Positions 23,808 to 35,093 of a stretch of 35,093 nucleotides of DNA are shown here, piece after piece; position 1 is the first letter of the stretch, and each line of letters starts with the position of its first letter. A program made the translations under genes and the position numbers. The notes beneath the pieces are model-generated. The model had not been told where the DNA came from and did not search any database. It saw only the letters and a list, made by a program, of their open reading frames with translations. The DNA is from Planctomycetota bacterium (lineage in GTDB: Bacteria; Planctomycetota; Phycisphaerae; Phycisphaerales; SM1A02), in NCBI GenBank assembly GCA_014381555.1, contig JACNLO010000050.1:1-35093 (forward strand). The letters run 5' to 3'.

Positions 23808-25075
23808 GCGTCTTCCTCGAAGTCCATCTCTCCATCTGTTAGCAAGTGAACAATCTCTCCACGAATAGATACAAAAAGTGGACTTCCAGAGGCGATATGC
23901 CAAGCAAGTTCTCGTTCATCGGTGCAATCGAGAAGTTGTATGTCAGCTTGTTTTCCTACTTCGAGAGTCCCAACGCGATTTTGAAGCCCAAGAGCATACG
24001 CGGGGTTAATAGTTGACGCTGTGATTGCTTCTGCTGGAGTTAGCCCTAGTCGTCGACAAGCAAGTGAAATTGCAAAGGGCATTGACGGGCTTGGTGCAGA
24101 GCCTGGATTGTAATTTGAGGCAATTGCAACTGCGCATCCAAGGTCGATAATTTCCCTGCCACGTGCGTATGTGTTATTCAAACAAAATCCGCTTGCTGGG
24201 AGTAGCACGCCAATCGTATCGCTCGATGCCAAATGCTTGAGTTCTTCATCAGTTGATGTTTCAAGATGGTCGACACTAACTGCGCCCATGTCTACCGCTC
24301 TGGTAAGCATGCCCAGAGGATTAAATTGGTCAACATGAGCTCTGATTGGACAGCCCAATTCAATCGCTTTTTCGAAGAGCGAAGTTGTTTGCTCAACCGA
24401 CCACGCCCCTTGTTCGCAGTACGCATCGCATGTGATGCCTGGGAATTCTTGTGCAACGGCTGGTAACATTTCATTAATAACCATGTCAGCAAATTGTTCT
24501 TGATCTGGGTCAATAGCGTGTGCTCCAAGAAAAGTTCCAGCAATGATTTGAGGAACAGCTTGAGAAGCATCGTGTATTGCTCGAAGCATTTTTAACTCAT
24601 CTTTAGTAGTAAGACCGTACCCACTTTTTATTTCAAGGGTGGTTGTTCCAAGCGATGCCATCAAGCCAACACGTTCAAGAAGATCTGAAGCCAGAATATC
24701 TTGAGATGTGTCGCGAACAGCACGGACGGTCGACATTATTCCGCCACCTTGTTTAAGAATATCAAGGTAGGAAACTCCGCGAAGACCCATTTCAAATTCA
24801 TCCAGGCGATTTCCCGCCCAGCATGCATGGGTGTGGCAATCAACGAATGTTGGCATTATAACTCTGCCATTTGCATCAATAACGGGTAATTCTTCACTCT
24901 CATCAATGAGACTGTTGTCAGGTACACCTTCACCGACATGTTGAATTAACCCATCTCGAACGAGAAGGTGTCCAATTTCTATGATGCCAAGATCGTTCAT
25001 TTCTTTGCGTCGTCGTGGAGTATTGCCACCAGAGAGAGTGAGGATTCTTGCGTTGATTATTATAAAACTAGTCAA
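23804..25075 (-). CDS. hutI: Imidazolonepropionase
   Basis: Third step of histidine degradation: opens 4-imidazolone-5-propanoate to N-formiminoglutamate. The amidohydrolase-fold protein (about 423 residues from this start) has the metal-site motif [12 protein letters not shown], then [43 protein letters not shown] and [16 protein letters not shown]. The start is uncertain. I chose the TTG at 25075, which overlaps the hutU stop (TTGACTAG) and gives the usual N-terminus; an ATG at 25105 would add ten residues and overlap hutU by 38 bases. It is followed by map with an ATGA overlap. Confidence 0.95.
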
Positions 25076-26750
25076 GAGGAGTTGCCTGTATTGGTATTTT
25101 AACATGGTGCTCGGTCGCGCACGATATTGCTTCAGAGTACCCAGCATCGACATGACGGAAAATCCCCATCATCGGATCGTTGGTGAGTACTCGCTTTAGA
25201 CGTGCGCCGCTTTCGGGGGTACCGTCGGCAACGATGACTTGGCCAGCGTGTTGAGAATAGCCGATACCTACTCCACCGCCGTGGTGAAAACTTACCCAGC
25301 TTGCACCACTTGCAATGTTTAATGCAAAGTTAATGAGTGGCCAATCACTTACAGCATCAGTGCCATCGAGCATGCCTTCCGTTTCACGGTTAGGGCTTGC
25401 AACGCTACCACAATCAAGATGGTCTCTGCCAATAACTATTGGTGCAGAAACTTCGCCGTTCTTAACGAGTTCGTTAAACGCAAGCCCCGCTTTATCACGC
25501 TCGCCTAGACCAAGCCAGCAAATTCGACATGGTAAGCCTTGGAACGCAACGCGCTCTTGTGCCATTTTTATCCAGCGCTTGAGAGATTCGTCTTCTGGAA
25601 ATAAATCAAGGATGACTTCGTCGGTTTTTTTAATGTCTTCGGGATTGCCAGAAAGAGCGCACCAACGGAAAGGCCCACGACCTCGGCAGAATTGAGGCCG
25701 AATATACGCTGGAACAAAGCCCGGAAAATCAAAAGCATTTTCGACACCTCTCTCATAAGCACGTTGACGTAAATTGTTGCCGTAGTCAAACGTCTTTGCG
25801 CCTTGCTCCATAAACCAGAGCATAAGTTTGACGTGTGTTGACATGGTTTTAGTTGATAGATCAACGTACTTTTCTGGATTGGTTAACCGAAGTTCATCTG
25901 CAACTTCTCTTGACAAGCCAGTTGGGTAGTAACCAACGAGCGGGTCATGTGCGGAAGTTTGATCTGTCAAAATTTCTGGAACGATCCTACGTTCTTGTAA
26001 TCTCAAGAGTAAGTCTACGATGTTGCCAAGGTATCCAATCGAAAGAGGTTCTTTATTTGTGGTTGCTTCAACAGCGCGATCGATTGCTTTATCGATGTCT
26101 TCAATAATTTCATCAAGGTATCGGTCGTGCACACGTTTTTCTAATCGTTCTATGCAGACATCAGCAATTAGGCAGGTCCCATCATTCATAGTGACAGCAA
26201 GTGGCTGCGCGCCGCCCATGCCACCGCACCCGCCGGTAACAGAAAGTGTTCCAGCTAGCGTTCCGCCAAAATGTTGTCGAGCGCATTCAGCAAACGTTTC
26301 GTATGTTCCTTGAAGTATTCCCTGAGTGCCGATGTAAATCCAAGAACCCGCAGTCATCTGTCCATACATCATGAGGTCACGAGCTTCCAAATCATCGAAC
26401 AAATCTTGGGTTGCCCAGTGTGGAACTAAGTTGCTGTTTGCAATAATGACTCGAGGAGAATCAACAGTCGTTGTGGCTATACCAACTGGCTTACCAGACT
26501 GCACAAGTAAAGTTTCGTCTGGCTCAATCGATTTTAGTGATGCGATGATTGCGTCGAACGATTCCCAATTGCGAGCGGCTTTTCCTCGTCCACCGTAAAC
26601 AACCAACTCGTCTGGGCGTTCTGCAACCTCTGGATCTAGATTGTTCATCAACATTCTCATGGCTGCTTCTGCTTGCCACGATTTACAAGTGAGCTTCGTT
26701 CCCCTTGGGGCGCGGATAGTGCGTTTTTCGTGTGTTAGTGGGGGTGCCAT
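25068..26750 (-). CDS. hutU: Urocanate hydratase
   Basis: Second step of histidine degradation, converting urocanate to imidazolonepropionate with bound NAD. The 560-residue protein has the typical N-terminus ([33 protein letters not shown] region), [45 protein letters not shown] and the nucleotide-binding [13 protein letters not shown] (173-185). The length is normal. I used the ATG at 26750 because the sequence from [10 protein letters not shown] matches the family; 16 upstream in-frame codons do not. It is the first gene of the minus-strand hutU-hutI-map-peptidase run. Confidence 0.97.
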
Positions 26751-26832
26751 AATTCTACCGATGGTATCCGCTAACTGTATTCTTTGCACGCTGTACAATC
26801 CAATATGGCACTAGAAATAAGGAGAAGTACCA

Positions 26833-27693: not shown

Positions 27694-29478
27694 ATGATTT
27701 TTTTGACCAAACAAGTTTGCCTTGTTTTTATACTATGTAATGTCAGTTTCGCTAGCGTGCCATTTGAGACACTGCGTCAATACCAAACTGGGTTGTACTC
27801 TACAGGAATTTTTCCGGCTGATTTTGACGGAGATGGAGATATTGATTTAGCTGTTTCAAACAGAGGAACTAACAATGTTTCTATTTTGTACAACAATGGA
27901 AATGGCGTTTATGAAACTAGGATTAATTTTCCAACAGGTGAAGTTCCTAGATATGTCCATGGTGGGGATTTTGATAGCGACGGCGATATTGATCTTTGTA
28001 CCCCTGATTACATCGGAATGACTGAGACGGTGCTACTCAATGACGGCAATGGTGCATTTACTATTGGTGGGCAATATGAAATAGAAACGCCAGCTTTTTC
28101 ATGGGTTGATGATATTGATGGTGACGGTCATCTTGATATTCTCATCACAAATTGGGATGGTGCTGCAGATGTACCAAGTCAATCTCCCGCTCAGTTTACT
28201 CCTCTCTTAAATAATGGCGACGGTACGTTTGTGTTTGGCCCATCTTCAGTGATTGGCAAACAACCTCGTTGTGGTGCTTCGGCGGATCTTAATGGCGATG
28301 GAATCAAAGATGCGGTAATAGCAAATTATTGGTCGAGTTCACTTTCTGTGGTTATGGGCCTAGGCAAAAGGCAATGGGCAGATGAAGTATCTATTGAACT
28401 AAGTGGTCATCCTCGATATCTTGTATTAGAGGATTTGGATAAGGATGGTACGGTAGACATTGCTGCTGTGGACAAGGGCGAAGACAATCTGTGGATTTTT
28501 CATAATGATGGACAAGCGAATTTTACACTTGTTGAAACGTTAAATACGAACGCTACTCCGCATTCTATTGATGCTACTGACATGAATCATGACGGTGCTA
28601 TAGACTTAGTAGTTTCCCATGTTGGCTCAGGGCAACAGTTATTGTTTTTTAATGATGGTGATGGCTTCTTCCCTGATTCACAAACAGTTATTCTAACTGC
28701 GGGCCCTGCAGAAATTAAAATCGCGGATGTAAACAATGATGGTGATTATGATCTTGTGTCTGCGAATGTAAACTGGGAAGAGCGTGGAGCAAGCGTTATC
28801 ATGCAAGGTTCTTGTGATGATTTAGTAGCAGATTGCAACAGCAATGGTATAGAAGATATTTGTGAATTGCCAGATTGTAATTTAAATGGGATTCCTGATG
28901 ATTGCGACATTTCTCTAGGTAACTCCCTAGACTTTGATGGGGATAGTGTGCCAGATGAATGTCAAGTTGATTGCAACGATAATTTAATTCCTGATACCTA
29001 TGAAATCTCGCAGGGACTGGTGACTGATTGTAATGAAAATGAGATTCCCGATGATTGCGATTGGGTTGTTCTTGGAGATTGCGATGAAGATGGCATTCTC
29101 GATGGGTGTGAAGAAGATATAAATGAAGACTGGGTGCCAGATGATTGCCAATGCAACGCAGACTTTTCTAATGATGGGGTAGTCGGCGTGCAGGATGTAA
29201 TTGCTTTGATTTCAGCATGGGGTGAAAATCCAATTCCTCATGGCGATCCAGTTGATGAGGATCTAAATGTAGATAATGTTGTTGATGTAGAAGATTTACT
29301 AATACTTATTATTTCTTGGGGCGAGTGTTCTGTGTATACCTTGCCTGATGTATTAGGTGCTTGTTGTTTGCAAATGCAACAGTGCTCTGAATTGCATGAA
29401 GTAGGATGCTATGTTAGGAACGGAGTGTATTTTGGGGACAATACATCATGTGGACTCGTTGATTGCGCTGCACCTTAA
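27694..29478 (+). CDS. Secreted FG-GAP beta-propeller protein with Cys/Asn-rich repeats, dockerin-like pair and Cys tail
   Basis: A 594-residue exported protein of unknown role. Residues 1-20 form a signal peptide (cleavage likely after NVSFA). Seven FG-GAP/VCBS calcium motifs follow, at 43, 92, 139, 198, 247, 296 and 345 (for example DFDGDGDID, DLNGDGIKD), enough for a seven-bladed propeller. Residues 374-487 repeat the pattern DCNxNxIPDDCD. Residues 490-510 (DFSNDGVVGVQDVIALISAWG) and 523-543 form a dockerin-like EF-hand pair. The tail (555-594) has the pattern CC-C-C-C-C that follows GA. This combination is typical of Phycisphaerae exported proteins, which suggests cell-surface adhesion or complex assembly. 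It is convergent with hutH, overlapping by four bases. Confidence 0.88.
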   Translation: MIFLTKQVCLVFILCNVSFASVPFETLRQYQTGLYSTGIFPADFDGDGDIDLAVSNRGTNNVSILYNNGNGVYETRINFPTGEVPRYVHGGDFDSDGDIDLCTPDYIGMTETVLLNDGNGAFTIGGQYEIETPAFSWVDDIDGDGHLDILITNWDGAADVPSQSPAQFTPLLNNGDGTFVFGPSSVIGKQPRCGASADLNGDGIKDAVIANYWSSSLSVVMGLGKRQWADEVSIELSGHPRYLVLEDLDKDGTVDIAAVDKGEDNLWIFHNDGQANFTLVETLNTNATPHSIDATDMNHDGAIDLVVSHVGSGQQLLFFNDGDGFFPDSQTVILTAGPAEIKIADVNNDGDYDLVSANVNWEERGASVIMQGSCDDLVADCNSNGIEDICELPDCNLNGIPDDCDISLGNSLDFDGDSVPDECQVDCNDNLIPDTYEISQGLVTDCNENEIPDDCDWVVLGDCDEDGILDGCEEDINEDWVPDDCQCNADFSNDGVVGVQDVIALISAWGENPIPHGDPVDEDLNVDNVVDVEDLLILIISWGECSVYTLPDVLGACCLQMQQCSELHEVGCYVRNGVYFGDNTSCGLVDCAAP

Positions 29479-30971
29479 TGTAGCAATTGCTCAATAGCAG
29501 CAATGTCTTCTGAAGGTGATCTGTCGCAATTCCGTTCTGGAACAACCTCGCGGATTTTAGAATATAAATGTTCGACTGCATCGCCACTTTTAAGAGGACG
29601 GTGATAGTCAAGAGCATCGCACCCAACTAGTAATTCAATAGCAATGACACTCCGGCACAGGTTGATAGACCGGCGAAGCATCAATGCAGAAGTTGCGCCC
29701 ATGGAGTTGTAATCTTCGATTCCTCCAGAAGTAGAAATATTGGAGACACTTGCTGGCATGGATAAGGTTCGCAATTCTGCGCAGCATGCTGCAGCAGTGT
29801 ATTGAACAATCATAAGTCCGCTTTCTAATCCCGGGTCGCATGCGCAAAAGGCGGGTAAATTATTGTGTATACAACGACCAGATAAAATCCATTCAATACG
29901 CCTTTCAGCAATTCCTGCAATGTGGCAGAGTGCAATGCGTAATTCATCCATGGCAATTGCAAGTGGCATTCCGTGGAAGTTGCCTCCGGAAATAATCGCA
30001 TTGTCCTTAGGAAAGACTAAAGGGTTATCAGTGACAGCACCAAGTTCAGCAGAAACAACACCAGTTACTCTTGCGATAGCTTCTATCGCTGCACCGAGAA
30101 CTTGAGGAGAGCATCGGAAACTGTACGGGTCTTGTACCCGTTGATCATCTTCTTGATGCGATGTAAGTATTGTTGAATTAACTAAGTGAGCTCGAAGAGT
30201 ACTCGCAACAGTCTGCTGTCCACTTTGAATTCGTGCTGCATGTAGCCGTTGGTCGAGGAAAGTATTAGTGGCTTTTGCCGTATCAATAGACATCGCAGTT
30301 GCGAGTACTGCAACTTCGCAAAGAACCGCAATATCTGCTAATCCAAGGGTTGCAATAGATGTCATCAGGTGAGTGCCGTTGATGAGTGCAAGCCCCTCCT
30401 TCTCAATGGGTACTATTGGAGTAATTCCAGCTGCAGCCATCGCTGCTTTGCCAGGCATTTCTTTTTCACCAAGGACGGCATTTCCCTCGCCACAGAGCAC
30501 AAGAGCAAGATGTGCAAGTGGAGCAAGGTCGCCAGAAGCACCAACTGACCCTCTTGATGGAATGACTGGTGTGACACCTGCATTAATCATTTCTACGATG
30601 CATTGAGCGACTTCTGGTCGAACTCCACTGTGTCCTCGACATAGATTTGCTGTGAGCAAAATCATCATCCCACGAACAATTTCACCTTCAAGAGGTTCAC
30701 CAACACCAGCAGCGTGTGAGCGTAGCAGGTTCATTTGAAGGTCTACAAGTTTATTATTATCGATTCGAGTAGTTGATAAAGCCCCGAATCCAGTGTTTAT
30801 TCCGTAGGTTGCATCATTTGTTGAGGTTACTTGAGCAACTGTAGCTCTCGCGGCTTCCATGAGTTCAATTGCAAGTGGGCTAATTTCTACTTTCACACCA
30901 TTTCGAGCTACTCCAACAACTTGTGGTCCTGAAAGGGGTCCACCATCTAAAACCAGTGTTTCTTGATTCAT
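29475..30971 (-). CDS. hutH: Histidine ammonia-lyase
   Basis: First step of histidine degradation, giving urocanate and ammonia. The 498-residue protein has the Ala-Ser-Gly triad (145-147) in GSVGASGDLAPLAH that forms the MIO cofactor. YGINTGFG with the catalytic Tyr near 56, NLLRSHAAGVGEP, GNFHG and EDYNSMG are also present. The length is normal. It is separated from hutU and hutI by two plus-strand genes and is read in the same direction as them, but it needs its own promoter. Its stop overlaps the end of the convergent secreted-protein gene. Confidence 0.97.
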   Translation of the reverse strand: MNQETLVLDGGPLSGPQVVGVARNGVKVEISPLAIELMEAARATVAQVTSTNDATYGINTGFGALSTTRIDNNKLVDLQMNLLRSHAAGVGEPLEGEIVRGMMILLTANLCRGHSGVRPEVAQCIVEMINAGVTPVIPSRGSVGASGDLAPLAHLALVLCGEGNAVLGEKEMPGKAAMAAAGITPIVPIEKEGLALINGTHLMTSIATLGLADIAVLCEVAVLATAMSIDTAKATNTFLDQRLHAARIQSGQQTVASTLRAHLVNSTILTSHQEDDQRVQDPYSFRCSPQVLGAAIEAIARVTGVVSAELGAVTDNPLVFPKDNAIISGGNFHGMPLAIAMDELRIALCHIAGIAERRIEWILSGRCIHNNLPAFCACDPGLESGLMIVQYTAAACCAELRTLSMPASVSNISTSGGIEDYNSMGATSALMLRRSINLCRSVIAIELLVGCDALDYHRPLKSGDAVEHLYSKIREVVPERNCDRSPSEDIAAIEQLLH

Positions 30972-31032: not shown

Positions 31033-31038
31033 GTGCCG

Positions 31039-31863
31039 ATGGACACATGGATTCGAAGCATAATCGTACTATTGGCAACTGGATTTGTCGGGTTTTTTGG
31101 GGCTTGGCAAGCATCGGCCTTGGTTTCTGCCAGAGGTGTTTTTGGTCCTACAATCTTCCAATCATTCTCGCCAGTTTCTTCGATGTTTGCAGTGTCACTG
31201 ACGATTGGAGTTGCATCTATAGTCGCTGGTTTTGTAGCAAAATGTACTACTGCAACAACAGGGATGTTTATTCTAGGTTTTTCACTGTTTGCCATGGCTA
31301 TGAAACTTGAAGGGATGCAAGAACTTGTCATGAGCAACGGTAATTTCAATGTCCTTGTTCTTGAGGCGGCATTTATCAGTGCTCTTGTCTTGTTAGGAAC
31401 TCTTGTTGTGTTCGCGATGGGTGGACCATTGAAATGCGTGAGCAAGCCCACGGAAGAAGACAATATGGCTAAGCAACTTGGAATAGCGTTCTGTATTTCG
31501 CTTGTAATTTTGCCAGTAATTTGGCTTTTTGCAACTACACCCGCAAAAGGTCAAGTGCTAGGAGCATCTGCAGTTGGCGGAATTCTTATTGCCTTTTTGT
31601 CAAGGCAGCTCCTCAGTTCGATGCAACCAATCATCTTGTTTGCTCTGCCAATCGCTTGTGGTGGGCTTGGGTACATCATCGGATTGCTACTTAGTGATAC
31701 AAGTCCTGCTTCTTTTGCTCAGCAAAAAATTTCATCCCTTCTATTCCCAATGCCAATTGAATATGCCGCTGGCATTATTATTGGGCTTGCTTTAGGTCTT
31801 GGTTGGACTTCCTCTCATGATGAAAATACGGTGCCCGAAATAGACAAAAAAGTTGCTCCGTAG
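31039..31863 (+). CDS. Polytopic membrane protein of unknown function
   Basis: A protein of about 274 residues with roughly eight hydrophobic helices and short loops. They include IIVLLATGFVGFFGAW near the N-terminus, MFAVSLTIGVASIVAGFVA, a pair near 105-165, and PIILFALPIACGGLGYIIGLLL. A charged C-terminal tail (SSHDENTVPEIDKK) follows. I recognise no transporter signature. It lies 18 bases before the acyl-CoA-ligase-like operon in the same direction, so it might be co-transcribed and could move a substrate of that pathway, but nothing in its sequence shows this. It is divergent from hutH. Confidence 0.75.
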   Translation: MDTWIRSIIVLLATGFVGFFGAWQASALVSARGVFGPTIFQSFSPVSSMFAVSLTIGVASIVAGFVAKCTTATTGMFILGFSLFAMAMKLEGMQELVMSNGNFNVLVLEAAFISALVLLGTLVVFAMGGPLKCVSKPTEEDNMAKQLGIAFCISLVILPVIWLFATTPAKGQVLGASAVGGILIAFLSRQLLSSMQPIILFALPIACGGLGYIIGLLLSDTSPASFAQQKISSLLFPMPIEYAAGIIIGLALGLGWTSSHDENTVPEIDKKVAP

Positions 31864-31881: not shown

Positions 31882-33360
31882 ATGGCACGATTACATGAAT
31901 ACCAAGGTAAGCAACTTTTAGAAGCCTCAGGGCTTTCAATTCCTCGCGGTAAAGTTGCAAGAACACCAGAACAGGTCTTTGAAATTGCAGAAGAACTTGG
32001 CGGCAACGTCGTAGTTAAAGTCCAAGCATGGGTAACGGGTCGCAAGGCACTTGGTGGTGTTGCTCTTGTGCACTCTGCTCAAGAAGCAAAAGATGCTGCT
32101 GAAAAAATGTTTCATTTGCAATTCGGCAACTTCCCCGTTGAAGAACTACTTGTCGAAGAATTACTCGACATTAAAGATGAATTTTTTGTTTCGTTAACGA
32201 TTGACGACGCAAATCAAGCGCCGCTTCTTTTACTAGATTGCCAAGGGGGTAGCGGTATCGAAGATAGAGCGGACACCGTTGCAAGAATACCTGTCAAAGC
32301 AGATGGTGAAATTTCAAAAGAAACATTACTTGAAGTTACAAAAGACGAAGCCGTTGTCGATGCTATTGTAAAAATTGTTTTGGCAGCGCGAACAAATGAA
32401 GCACGCTCCATGGAAGTTAATCCGCTTGTTCGGTTAACAGATGGCTCAATCGTAGCCGCTGATTGCAGAGTGACCATCGACGATTACGCTGTCTTCAGAC
32501 ATGATGATTTAGGCATTGACATCGCTCGCGAACTTGACCACCCACCAACAAAACTTGAACAACTTGCGTATGAAATTGAACAAGAAGATCACCGAGGCAC
32601 GTTTTACTTTGCAAAATTACCTACGGATGGTTGGGAAGATACAAATGGGTTAATTGCGTTCCATGGGGCTGGCGGTGGCGGATCGATGATGTCGATGGAC
32701 GCAGTTTCAAACGAGGGCTTTACCCTTGCGAACTTTACTGATACTAGCGGCAATCCTTCAGTTGCAAAGGTCTATCAGGCGGCACGCATAATTTTATCTC
32801 AGCCTAATCTAAGTGGTTACTTTGGGAGTGGGTCTGGAGTCGCTTCACAAGAACAGTATCACTCAGCGTACGGTCTTGCAAAAGCATTCATCGAAATGAA
32901 GATGGAAGTACCCGCAGTCATTCGCTTGGGCGGAAACAGTGAAGACAGAGCAGTTGATATTTTAGAGGATTCATGTCAGCATCTTCCCTCACAAGTCCGT
33001 GGGTTCAAGAAAGATGACACCCCCGGAAAGTGCGCAGAAATTTTTGCGAAATTGGTTGAAGAAACGAATGCAACGAACGAGTCAATGACCAGACACGTAC
33101 CCGATTTTGTTGGAAGTGAAAACGCTTCAAGTTTCCCAATCAAGTACGGCGCACTTTGGATTGACAATGTCCCACCGGAAGTGGCAGAAATAGTTGTGCG
33201 CGAGAGTAATGGTCTCCTAACTATTGGTGATTCCGGTCAACCAGAACCAACTGAAGATATTACAGATAAAGACAGCGATTTAATCGCTTGCGAAATTGAA
33301 TGTTTACGAGCAGGGCACAATGTTGTCTTTGTAGATATGCCTGTGAAAGGACTTGATTAA
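31882..33360 (+). CDS. Succinyl-CoA-synthetase beta-like subunit; probable citryl-CoA synthetase large subunit
   Basis: A 492-residue ATP-grasp acyl-CoA ligase subunit. The N-terminus ARLHEYQGKQLLEASGL matches SucC. VVVKVQAWVTGRKALGGV is the ATP-grasp lobe, MEVNPLVRLTDG the metal-binding region and AFHGAGGGGSMMSMD the start of the CoA-ligase domain, with VPAVIRLGGN following. It is about 100 residues longer than SucC; the extra C-terminal part (from about 400) has no obvious motif. Gene order with an alpha-like subunit and a citrate-synthase-fold lyase points to citryl-CoA synthetase rather than the TCA-cycle succinyl enzyme. Malate-CoA ligase or a plain succinyl-CoA synthetase remain possible. 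It overlaps the next gene as TAATG. Confidence 0.85.
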   Translation: MARLHEYQGKQLLEASGLSIPRGKVARTPEQVFEIAEELGGNVVVKVQAWVTGRKALGGVALVHSAQEAKDAAEKMFHLQFGNFPVEELLVEELLDIKDEFFVSLTIDDANQAPLLLLDCQGGSGIEDRADTVARIPVKADGEISKETLLEVTKDEAVVDAIVKIVLAARTNEARSMEVNPLVRLTDGSIVAADCRVTIDDYAVFRHDDLGIDIARELDHPPTKLEQLAYEIEQEDHRGTFYFAKLPTDGWEDTNGLIAFHGAGGGGSMMSMDAVSNEGFTLANFTDTSGNPSVAKVYQAARIILSQPNLSGYFGSGSGVASQEQYHSAYGLAKAFIEMKMEVPAVIRLGGNSEDRAVDILEDSCQHLPSQVRGFKKDDTPGKCAEIFAKLVEETNATNESMTRHVPDFVGSENASSFPIKYGALWIDNVPPEVAEIVVRESNGLLTIGDSGQPEPTEDITDKDSDLIACEIECLRAGHNVVFVDMPVKGLD

Positions 33361-34298
33361 TGGCAGTCATTATTGATCAAAATAAACGTGTCATGGTGCA
33401 GGGCATCACTGGTCGTGAGGGAAGGGCACGAACTCGGCTTATGAAGGAGTTTGGTACTAACATTGTCGGCGGTTGCACTCCCGGAAAGGGCGGGCAAGAA
33501 GTTGAAGGCATCCCAGTACACGACACGGTTTCTGAAGTTATTAAATCTTCCGGTGGCGTTATCGATATCTCCGTTGTCTTTGTTCCAGCACGACTTGTGA
33601 AACACGCCGCAATTGAAGCAATTGACGCTGGCGTGAAACTTGTTGTACTTGTTCCAGACCGCGTTCCTGTTTGGGATGCAATGGCAATTGCAGCAAGAGC
33701 AAAAGAAGCAGGTGCAAACTTTGTTGGCCCAAACACTCTTGGCATTATTAGCCCAGGAAAAGCAGTCCTTGGAATGATTGGCGGTAAGGCAGAGTCAGCC
33801 CGTCAATGGTTCACGCCCCCGAAAGCTCCCGAAAGTAATGGTACGACGCTTGGAGTTATTTCGCGATCTGGTGGCATGACGAGTTCTTGTGGGTATTACC
33901 TTGCACAAGCGGGTTTTGGTTTAAGCACACTCTGTCATGTTGGTGGTGATAGTGTTATTGGATTACCAATTCCTGACGTAGCACTGATGATGCAAGATGA
34001 TGACGAGACTGATGGCATAGTTATCTTTGGAGAAATTGGCGGAAGCCAAGAAGAGCGATTAGCAAAACACATGAAGGATGGAAGAATTACAAAACCCGTG
34101 ATTGCATATATAGGAGGCAAGGCAGCCAAAGAGGGCACACGCTTTAGTCATGCTGGTGCAATTATCGAAGGTGGTCGTGGAACTCACGATGGCAAGGTGA
34201 AAGCAATTACAGAGGCAGGTGGTGTTGTAGTTGATGCCTTTGGCGAATTACCCAAAGCCGCCCTTGCAACATTTCAATTAGAGAGGACAAACGCATGA
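33360..34298 (+). CDS. Succinyl-CoA-synthetase alpha-like subunit; probable citryl-CoA synthetase small subunit
   Basis: A 312-residue CoA-binding ligase subunit. It has [22 protein letters not shown] (CoA-binding Rossmann start), [45 protein letters not shown] and the phosphohistidine motif RFSHAGAII (His264). It pairs with the preceding beta-like subunit, starting in its stop codon (TAATG), and overlaps the next gene by ATGA. In the Hydrogenobacter route such a heterodimer makes citryl-CoA from citrate, ATP and CoA. The substrate here is inferred from the third gene, not from a residue that I can read. Confidence 0.85.
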
Positions 34299-35062
34299 GT
34301 GAACCGTGGAAGACCGCAATCACCGAAATCGAGCCAAATGCGGTTCGAGTTCGCGGGTACGACATCGCTGACTTAATGGGAAACTGTTCTTTTGGTCAGA
34401 TGGTCTATCTCATTCTCCGCGGTGAAATGCCAGATGAACCAACTGGTAAGTTGATGGAAGCAATTATTGTTTCAAGTATTGATCACGGCGCAACACCTCC
34501 ATCAGTGCTTGCAGCAAGGACCGTTGCATCAACTGGTGCAACTCTGAGCGCGTCTGTTGCTGCAGGCATCATGTCAATCAATAAACACCACGGCGGTGCA
34601 ATTACAAATTGTGCAAAACAATTACGTGAAATTATCGCAAAAGCAGATGGCGGAGATTTGCATTTTGCCGCGGAAACATGTCTTGCAGAATGGAAAAAAT
34701 CTGGTGTTCGTATGAGTGGCTTCGGTCATCGCATACACTCTGCTGACCCCCGAACCAAACGCCTTATGGATTTAGCTGAAGATGCAAACGTTTGCGGAAA
34801 GTATATTGAAGCAGCACGCGCGGTTGCGCAGGTCTTTGCTGATGCTGGGAAGAGATTGCCAATTAATGTTGATGGTGCAATTGCTGCACTTCTAGCCGAC
34901 CTTGGCTTTGAACCAGAAGTCATGAATGGTTTATTCATGATTGCAAGAACTCCAGGATTAGTCGCGCACGTGCGCGAAGAACAAACCCGCATGAAACCGA
35001 TGCGTAAAATCATCCCCGGAAATCACGAATACGATGGTCCTTCGGAAAGAAAACTCAAATGA
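34295..35062 (+). CDS. Short citrate-synthase-fold protein, probable citryl-CoA lyase
   Basis: A 255-residue protein, far shorter than citrate synthase (about 370-430) but matching the size of stand-alone citryl-CoA lyases and the C-terminal part of ATP-citrate lyase. The citrate-synthase catalytic positions can be aligned: His98 or 99 in NKHHGGAI, His145 in FGHRIHSADPR, Asp193 in INVDGAIAALL, and ARTPGLVAHVREEQ for the usual ARTxGWxAH segment. With the two upstream subunits it would split citryl-CoA to acetyl-CoA and oxaloacetate, or run in reverse. It is joined by ATGA overlaps to the genes on both sides. Confidence 0.82.
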   Translation: MSEPWKTAITEIEPNAVRVRGYDIADLMGNCSFGQMVYLILRGEMPDEPTGKLMEAIIVSSIDHGATPPSVLAARTVASTGATLSASVAAGIMSINKHHGGAITNCAKQLREIIAKADGGDLHFAAETCLAEWKKSGVRMSGFGHRIHSADPRTKRLMDLAEDANVCGKYIEAARAVAQVFADAGKRLPINVDGAIAALLADLGFEPEVMNGLFMIARTPGLVAHVREEQTRMKPMRKIIPGNHEYDGPSERKLK

Positions 35063-35093
35063 CATACACAACAAACGATATCGCAGAACTCTT
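35059..35093 (+). CDS. Start of a further operon gene, cut by window end
   Basis: An ATG overlaps the stop of the citryl-CoA-lyase-like gene (ATGA) and opens a frame beginning MTYTTNDIAEL that runs off the window. Eleven codons are too few to name a product. The overlap, identical in form to those inside the operon, suggests a fourth translationally coupled member. Confidence 0.6.
   Translation, partial: MTYTTNDIAEL

Follow-up and report, generated by a model that had tools for sequence, protein, structure and literature searches.

A planctomycete operon for a predicted ATP-dependent lyase that would most likely cleave homocitrate

Results

The stretch of DNA studied here, which we call the window, comprises 35,093 nucleotides (nt) of a Planctomycetota bacterium of the Phycisphaerales (assembly GCA_014381555.1, contig JACNLO010000050.1) and ends in a compact operon for proteins resembling the two subunits of succinyl-CoA synthetase (SCS) and a citryl-CoA lyase (CCL), which together would form an ATP-dependent lyase for a citrate-type acid. 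The original prediction, made from the letters of the window, described three overlapping genes, SucC-like, SucD-like and of citrate-synthase fold, with a fourth gene entering. The three are confirmed as open reading frames (ORFs) with family matches far beyond chance, all on the + strand and joined by TAATG and ATGA overlaps (31882-35062). The fourth starts with an ATG at 35059, and its 11 visible codons (MTYTTNDIAEL) resemble the start of an HD-domain protein in relatives. The window is the entire contig C7 of its own genome (G000; 2.0 Mb, 97.7% complete), and the sequence past 35093 is therefore unreadable. The features of the apparent operon, with lengths in amino acids (aa), are:

31033..31863, + strand: membrane protein, 276 aa; heads the apparent operon, with an 18-nt gap to the beta gene
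31882..33360, + strand: SCS-type beta subunit (ATP-grasp), 492 aa; PF08442; predicted large subunit of a homocitryl-CoA synthetase
33076..33357, + strand: C-terminal extension of beta, approximately residues 399-492; conserved in the aligned betas
33360..34298, + strand: SCS-type alpha subunit, 312 aa, with phosphohistidine H264; PF02629, PF00549 and PF13607 over cut-off
34295..35062, + strand: CCL family protein, 255 aa, with H99/H145/D193; NF004869; predicted homocitryl-CoA lyase
35059..35093, + strand: start of the fourth gene (F2, HD-domain protein), truncated at the contig end

The beta subunit matches PF08442 (1.2e-23 being the corresponding value for alpha and PF02629) at 1.7e-31, and both subunits score far below the cut-offs of canonical succinyl-CoA synthetase (188.6 vs 370 for beta, 258 vs 336 for alpha). 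Separate sucCD and gltA genes were sought in the genome; it has a canonical SucC with 512 bits (cut-off 370), a canonical SucD with 414 (cut-off 336) and two full citrate synthases, and the window pair is therefore not the only SucCD copy, a candidate explanation that is ruled out. These scores support viewing the window ligase as a second, divergent SCS-type enzyme, distinct from the canonical SucC/SucD of this genome. The suggestion that it belongs with the CcsA/CcsB ligase did not hold, since both subunits score higher to ordinary SucC and SucD (160 bits for beta to 3ufx, 249 bits for alpha to 2yv2) than to CcsA/CcsB (90 bits to 6hxq_B and 162 bits to 6hxq_A, respectively). His264 of alpha does sit in a conserved phosphohistidine loop, FSHAGA being kept in 38/38 aligned alphas (FSHAGAI in 37 and FSHAGAM in one, L114). 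The beta subunits share the loop FGSGSGVA[SN]QEQ (36/36 aligned sequences); the window aligns GSGSGVASQEQ where AclB (6hxj) has GGAIANFT, a loop that we take to have a citrate-binding role, and the AclB loop is thus absent at this position. Residues 255-308 of beta pass PF16114 Citrate_bind (28.9 bits vs a cut-off of 26.8).

The C-terminal extension of about 100 residues, described earlier as unusual, is real and present in all 36 aligned betas. Its last ~95 residues are predicted to form a small alpha/beta element (block pLDDT 79-93), and a whole-chain Foldseek search with the beta model returned SCS beta first and then ATP-citrate lyase (ACL), with SCS and ACL chains among the 50 listed matches and none that identified the extension. 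Because of their modest quality (mean pLDDT 81.7 and pTM 0.60 for beta, mean pLDDT 68.7 for CCL), the models were used at fold level only.

The third protein matches PF00285 at 1.2e-40 and exceeds three NCBIfam cut-offs, those of the citryl-CoA lyase subfamily NF004869 (272 vs 212), NF004866 (259.7 vs 245) and NF004868 (197.4 vs 193), while falling short of the equivalog NF004864 (228 vs 261). Its nearest match in the PDB, by sequence and by predicted fold, is the CCL of Hydrogenobacter thermophilus (6hxp, 42% identity). The His/His/Asp positions recognised in the first reading, H99, H145 and D193, are invariant in 10/10 aligned sequences, the window one included, and their catalytic roles are presumably those known from citrate synthase. 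This supports a true CCL relative, which may cleave citryl-CoA. Its identification as a citrate or methylcitrate synthase is ruled out by length and curated scores: the protein has 255 aa and reaches 93.7 vs 332 with the best synthase model, whereas the two citrate synthases of the genome have 385 and 400 aa and TIGR01800 scores of 489.6 and 422.1 (cut-off 421.3). Full-length or near-full-length CCL orthologs occur in 31 of the 101 genomes searched (the window's included; the other 30 at 62-77% identity), with one further truncated copy in G026, and in only 1/13 genomes of the window's genus.

We read the neighbourhoods of the 30 relatives with a CCL ortholog besides the window. The usual gene order, whole or partial, is (membrane protein)-beta-alpha-CCL-(GNAT)-HD protein-(other genes)-homoaconitase-isocitrate/isopropylmalate-dehydrogenase family-MmgE/PrpD, and homoaconitase lies in the same stretch as the CCL ortholog in 17 of these 31 loci, many of the others ending at contig ends. 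The partners of the window's genome are spread over two other contigs: C61 (3.4 kb) carries homoaconitase, which reaches 722 bits with TIGR00139 (cut-off 530), and C18 (6.2 kb) carries both the dehydrogenase and PrpD. The best model for the dehydrogenase is the homoisocitrate dehydrogenase AksF2, at 328 vs a cut-off of 540, and we therefore call it homoisocitrate-dehydrogenase-like only; aligned with the isocitrate dehydrogenases 6lky and 1tyo, it shows Ile at the Asn position of S-x-N. PrpD passes PF03972 and stays far under the curated PrpD models. A second MmgE/PrpD-family protein (G000:C5:76038-76748) shares its contig with one of the citrate synthases, a possible methylcitrate cycle. The PF00180 match is absent from 11/12 congeners; the exception, G012, has homoaconitase and the dehydrogenase and showed no CCL ortholog in its 88%-complete assembly. 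A high-scoring aconitase (>=540 bits), presumably AcnA, is present in 10/12 congeners and partial in G008 and G012; that homoaconitase is the lone PF00330 match in the window's genome may reflect either an assembly gap or a replacement.

Named genome contigs were scanned with the homoaconitase alignment, and the best 80 of 582 matches are referred to as the 80 named loci. At least five of these duplicate loci of the G set (L111=G035, L113=G015, L122=G082, L124=G013, L164=G081), and counts from the two sets are therefore not additive. The list of same-strand neighbours held many spurious ORFs and was used only to pick candidates, which were then tested. Labels among the 80 include Planctomycetota, Verrucomicrobia, Acidobacteria, Neomarinimicrobiota, Ignavibacteria, Zixibacteria, Calditrichota, Gemmatimonadota, Bacteroidetes, Chloroflexi and others; the HD protein is in view in 53 loci, the dehydrogenase in 45 and PrpD in 41. 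The ligase/CCL genes accompany homoaconitase in 12 loci and citrate lyase genes (CitDE and/or CitF) in 21, and no locus has both. Neither lyase type is in view in the other 47, many of them on short contigs and two (L148, L164) with a divergent CCL. The CitF of L132 matches PF04223 with 458 bits and lies just under the TIGR01584 cut-off (500.2 vs 501.45), and the CitE of L155 matches PF03328, has a fused ACP domain and is under the TIGR01588 cut-off (293 vs 443).

In a quick homoaconitase tree (SH-aLRT only, midpoint root for drawing only; L185 and L188, <700 bits, left out), the root separates 19 of the 20 ligase/CCL rows from the remaining one (L053) and the 21 CitDEF rows, all of which lie on the opposite side. 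The ligase/CCL type was seen in Phycisphaerae-type planctomycetes and in some metagenome-assembled genomes (MAGs) labelled Verrucomicrobia or Acidobacteria; the CitDEF type occurs in MAGs labelled with seven phyla, five of which were not seen here with the ligase type (Neomarinimicrobiota/Fidelibacterota, Ignavibacteriota, Bacteroidota, Chloroflexota and Gemmatimonadota). Ligase/CCL and CitDEF, which belongs to the different families PF03328, PF04223 and PF06857, are thus a non-homologous replacement at one place beside homoaconitase.

Links to lysine or 2-oxoadipate metabolism are few and mixed: two are biosynthetic and the rest catabolic. The single contig of G081 seen as L079 and L164 has the core 3' of lysW, lysX, an ArgC-type LysY, [LysW]-aminoadipate kinase and [LysW]-lysine hydrolase, each of which exceeds its curated cut-off, and positions 4076-14229 of L079 (G081:C16) hold the contiguous series lysW-lysX-lysY-lysZ-lysK-CCLlike-HD-homoaconitase-dehydrogenase-PrpD. 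In the 19 kb read there, the divergent CCL-like gene is present; ligase and homocitrate synthase genes were not found. In this planctomycete, the CCL relative stands without a neighbouring ligase at a place where homocitrate synthase would be expected, and it may have evolved into such a synthase within a LysW lysine operon, much as citrate synthase has been proposed to derive from CCL. A divergent CCL gene also precedes HD-homoaconitase-dehydrogenase-PrpD in L148 (6883-13400), where no Lys or ligase genes were found in view. In L174, whose long branch leaves its place in the tree unsure, homoaconitase and the dehydrogenase precede a homocitrate synthase (TIGR02146, 472 vs 414).

On the catabolic side, a piperidine-6-carboxylate dehydrogenase gene (728, cut-off 730) directly follows the dehydrogenase in L080/L122 (one contig). 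A gene with a saccharopine-dehydrogenase domain lies some kilobases from the homoaconitase set in L122 and between HD and homoaconitase in L125 and L180; these saccharopine-type proteins matched Pfam and had no NCBIfam match at 1e-20. Glutaryl-CoA dehydrogenase (GCDH) follows PrpD in L168 and L169 (L169 checked; best PDB match 2eba, 461 bits), and a tryptophanase-family gene in the same direction stands between HD and homoaconitase, or one gene earlier, in at least five loci (L050, L055, L064, L094 and L125, of which L050 and L125 were model-tested). In the window itself, hutH next to the operon counts among these catabolic neighbours. LysX over cut-off was detected in 11/101 genomes and in 3 of the 31 with a CCL ortholog (G086, G095, G097), and it was not found in the window's genome; a tie of the module to LysW lysine biosynthesis was rejected on these counts. 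Piperidine-6-carboxylate dehydrogenase reaches 690 bits or more in 29/31 module genomes (split over two contigs in G019), and was set aside as supporting co-occurrence: 54/61 family genomes carry it with or without the module, and it is therefore not discriminating.

Discussion

Our data suggest, with a probability of roughly 0.55, that the operon encodes an ATP-dependent lyase that acts in two steps on a citrate-type tricarboxylate, with homocitrate as its most likely substrate, within a gene set that runs the alpha-aminoadipate route backwards. Overall, homocitrate, ATP and CoA would give acetyl-CoA and 2-oxoglutarate: the SucCD-like pair would form the CoA thioester via its phosphohistidine, and the CCL-like protein would cleave it by a retro-Claisen reaction to acetyl-CoA and a 2-keto acid, which would be 2-oxoglutarate in the case of homocitrate. 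The homoisocitrate-dehydrogenase-like enzyme, homoaconitase and PrpD would supply homocitrate from 2-oxoadipate and CO2, so that the alpha-aminoadipate route in reverse would be a way to use 2-oxoadipate from amino-acid breakdown. The cleavage chemistry of the ligase and CCL is well supported, and cleavage of a citrate-type acid by the gene set is chiefly supported by the presence of two unrelated lyases in the same place. The C7 substrate, the direction, the source of 2-oxoadipate and the role of PrpD are what we infer from the gene context. Homocitrate is more likely than citrate because the partners in relatives are enzymes of the homocitrate/2-oxoadipate (lysine) route, and cleavage is the preferred direction because both CitDEF and ATP-dependent ligase plus lyase are cleavage systems in the known cases and LysX is found in so few module genomes. 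A passage of PMC5441870 likewise treats citryl-CoA synthetase (CCS) and CCL as cleavage enzymes.

PrpD would catalyse the homoaconitate/homocitrate half-step that some homoaconitases lack. According to PMC3556520, the yeast and Aspergillus fumigatus homoaconitases act only between homoaconitate and homoisocitrate, the step from homocitrate to homoaconitate being carried out by aconitases. Since such fungal enzymes perform only one half-step, a separate dehydratase would be needed, and PrpD would fit. We tentatively extend this to an undescribed reverse pathway from 2-oxoadipate and CO2 through homoisocitrate, homoaconitate and homocitrate to acetyl-CoA or acetate and 2-oxoglutarate, whose last step would have been solved twice, by a homocitryl-CoA synthetase/lyase and by a CitDEF-type homocitrate lyase, the CCL of G081 having perhaps turned into a homocitrate synthase; as a whole we put this scheme a little short of even odds.

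Several observations weigh against homocitrate cleavage in the window's organism. The lyase is close to a bona fide citryl-CoA lyase (42% identity), and the reverse route would cost ATP and reductant. The linkage of the set to the window operon is inferred from relatives, the partners of this genome being on C61 and C18; homoaconitase is on a different contig from CCL in G062 and G075, and in the single-contig genome G043 it was not within the 17.5 kb read around CCL. No PF00330 protein besides homoaconitase and no PF00180 protein besides the dehydrogenase was found in the genome, and the two could therefore serve the tricarboxylic acid (TCA) cycle instead. Catabolic neighbours are rare among the 80 named loci (ALDH7 in 1, saccharopine-type in 2, L122 not being in that count, GCDH in 2 and tryptophanase in 1), and no high-scoring piperidine-6-carboxylate dehydrogenase that could lead to 2-oxoadipate was found in G000 (nor in G034). 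A title in the reference list of PMC3556520 has a methanogen homoaconitase catalysing both hydrolyase reactions, and the case for PrpD would thus not hold in general. Finally, L181 has a homocitrate synthase as well as ligase/CCL genes, and the coupling of the CCL-like gene of G081 to lysine biosynthesis suggests the opposite direction there.

The closeness to Hydrogenobacter CCL makes citrate cleavage, the reaction originally envisaged, the main rival, although we judge it unlikely. The module would then convert 2-oxoglutarate and CO2 via isocitrate and citrate to acetyl-CoA and oxaloacetate, with partners acting on C6 acids, as would befit a lyase over the citryl-CoA-lyase subfamily cut-off, a beta subunit passing Citrate_bind, a swapped partner that is citrate lyase, and partners that are the sole PF00330 and PF00180 proteins found in the genome. 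However, the aconitase-family partner is homoaconitase by TIGR00139 with relatives in lysine-biosynthesis clusters, the dehydrogenase scores highest to homoisocitrate dehydrogenase and lacks the Asn of S-x-N, and the beta loop is unlike the aligned Chlorobium AclB loop. Moreover, aconitases carry out both half-reactions, and PrpD would be superfluous if the partner did so. What stands of the original proposal is therefore a true CCL relative and a second, divergent SCS-type ligase, without membership in CcsAB and with a gene context in relatives that favours another substrate. The adaptation to another 3-hydroxyacyl-CoA, which had been offered as the alternative, is now favoured in the form of homocitryl-CoA by the homoaconitase, homoisocitrate-dehydrogenase-like and PrpD genes of relatives.

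Two further explanations keep parts of this context and change the chemistry. CCL could condense acetyl-CoA and 2-oxoglutarate to homocitryl-CoA, with the ligase in reverse saving the thioester as ATP and 2-oxoadipate serving lysine or another product. The LysW cluster of G081 speaks for such a biosynthetic role, since a CCL-like gene immediately precedes HD-homoaconitase-dehydrogenase-PrpD there and the region read showed no homocitrate synthase; the scarcity of LysX among CCL-ortholog genomes and its absence from the hits in this one, the cleavage enzyme CitDEF as alternative partner, and the homocitrate synthase of L181 make it improbable. The least probable of the alternatives is a substrate besides citrate and homocitrate, either another tricarboxylate or a 3-hydroxyacid (a 2-alkyl citrate, for instance). 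C7 is indicated by the score of homoaconitase with its equivalog model and by the links to lysine clusters, even though the beta loop matches neither the aligned SucC nor the AclB chain, CitE and CitF of the swapped operons (L155, L132) are under curated cut-offs, and MmgE/PrpD relatives in the PDB have varied substrates (IDS epimerase, cis-aconitate decarboxylase, 2-methylcitrate dehydratase).

The favoured homocitrate lyase would share with CcsA/CcsB and Ccl of H. thermophilus the three-part logic, an SCS-type ligase with a phosphohistidine loop and a lyase whose nearest solved structure is 6hxp. It differs in that its ligase is nearer to SucC/SucD, its beta has a C-terminal extension conserved in orthologs, and its context is homoaconitase, homoisocitrate-dehydrogenase-like enzyme and PrpD. 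CitDEF, which shares the place beside the homoaconitase set, uses no ATP per turnover and releases acetate. With the alpha-aminoadipate lysine pathway (Lys4, homoisocitrate dehydrogenase), the set has in common a homoaconitase over TIGR00139, of a family found in LysW and homocitrate-synthase clusters; the lyase/ligase pair replaces homocitrate synthase, no LysX is over cut-off in the genome, and the predicted direction is the reverse.

Alpha and CCL are separate chains in the window, and they form one reading frame in 10 of the 38 loci showing both (L059 and L124 are the same contig); apparent fusions in L043 and L056 were rejected by a frame-by-frame check. Loci with the fused protein have the AclA + AclB subunit architecture of ATP-citrate lyase. 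The two halves of the L114 fusion protein match SucD and CCL models, and SucD and CCL also outscore AclA as matches to the window alpha and CCL; the fusion therefore looks independent of ATP-citrate lyase. Its distribution on the tree requires two changes, one of them forced by starred branches. In L125, beta and the fused alpha-CCL are separated by a gene resembling butyryl-CoA:acetate CoA-transferase (1132-2409; 257.7 bits, cut-off 674.8).

In searches of the open-licence literature we found no paper on homocitryl-CoA, homocitrate lyase or homocitrate cleavage, and none pairing CCL with homoaconitase or with PrpD. If homocitrate is the substrate, the operon would provide a cleavage step without a report in that literature and an alternative end for amino-acid carbon reaching 2-oxoadipate. 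It would also be an annotation trap: the nearest curated models say citryl-CoA lyase and succinyl-CoA ligase, and with such names the genes could be mistaken for a sign of the reductive TCA cycle. The lyase swap, together with the seemingly independent AclA-like fusion, makes the origin of ATP-citrate lyase testable by comparison.

Neighbouring genes

The visible start of the HD protein (MTYTTNDIAEL) compares with MTYGTEQITEL in L040, whose HD relative (L040:6020-6604) scores 32 bits to PF01966 HD (cut-off 22). A protein search in the window's genome gave no match for it, which fits a gene possibly divided by the contig break. Of 82 aligned sequences, 52 match LLxDxGK, and 51 of these have Ala in place of the His of the HD pair (LLAD[VCI]GK); the protein may therefore not be an ordinary phosphohydrolase.

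At the other end of the operon, the 276-aa membrane protein had no Pfam or NCBIfam match at E 0.01, and homologs lie 5' of beta in 11 other loci (L040, L043, L044, L045, L046, L047, L049, L056, L063, L109 and L112). Further upstream, on the opposite strand, the window has a urocanase-like ORF, named by eye (25071-26810, -), and a histidine ammonia-lyase gene (hutH; 29475-30971, -) that adjoins the operon, as a HutH homolog does in nine other loci (L040, L043, L044, L047, L049, L056, L063, L109 and L112).

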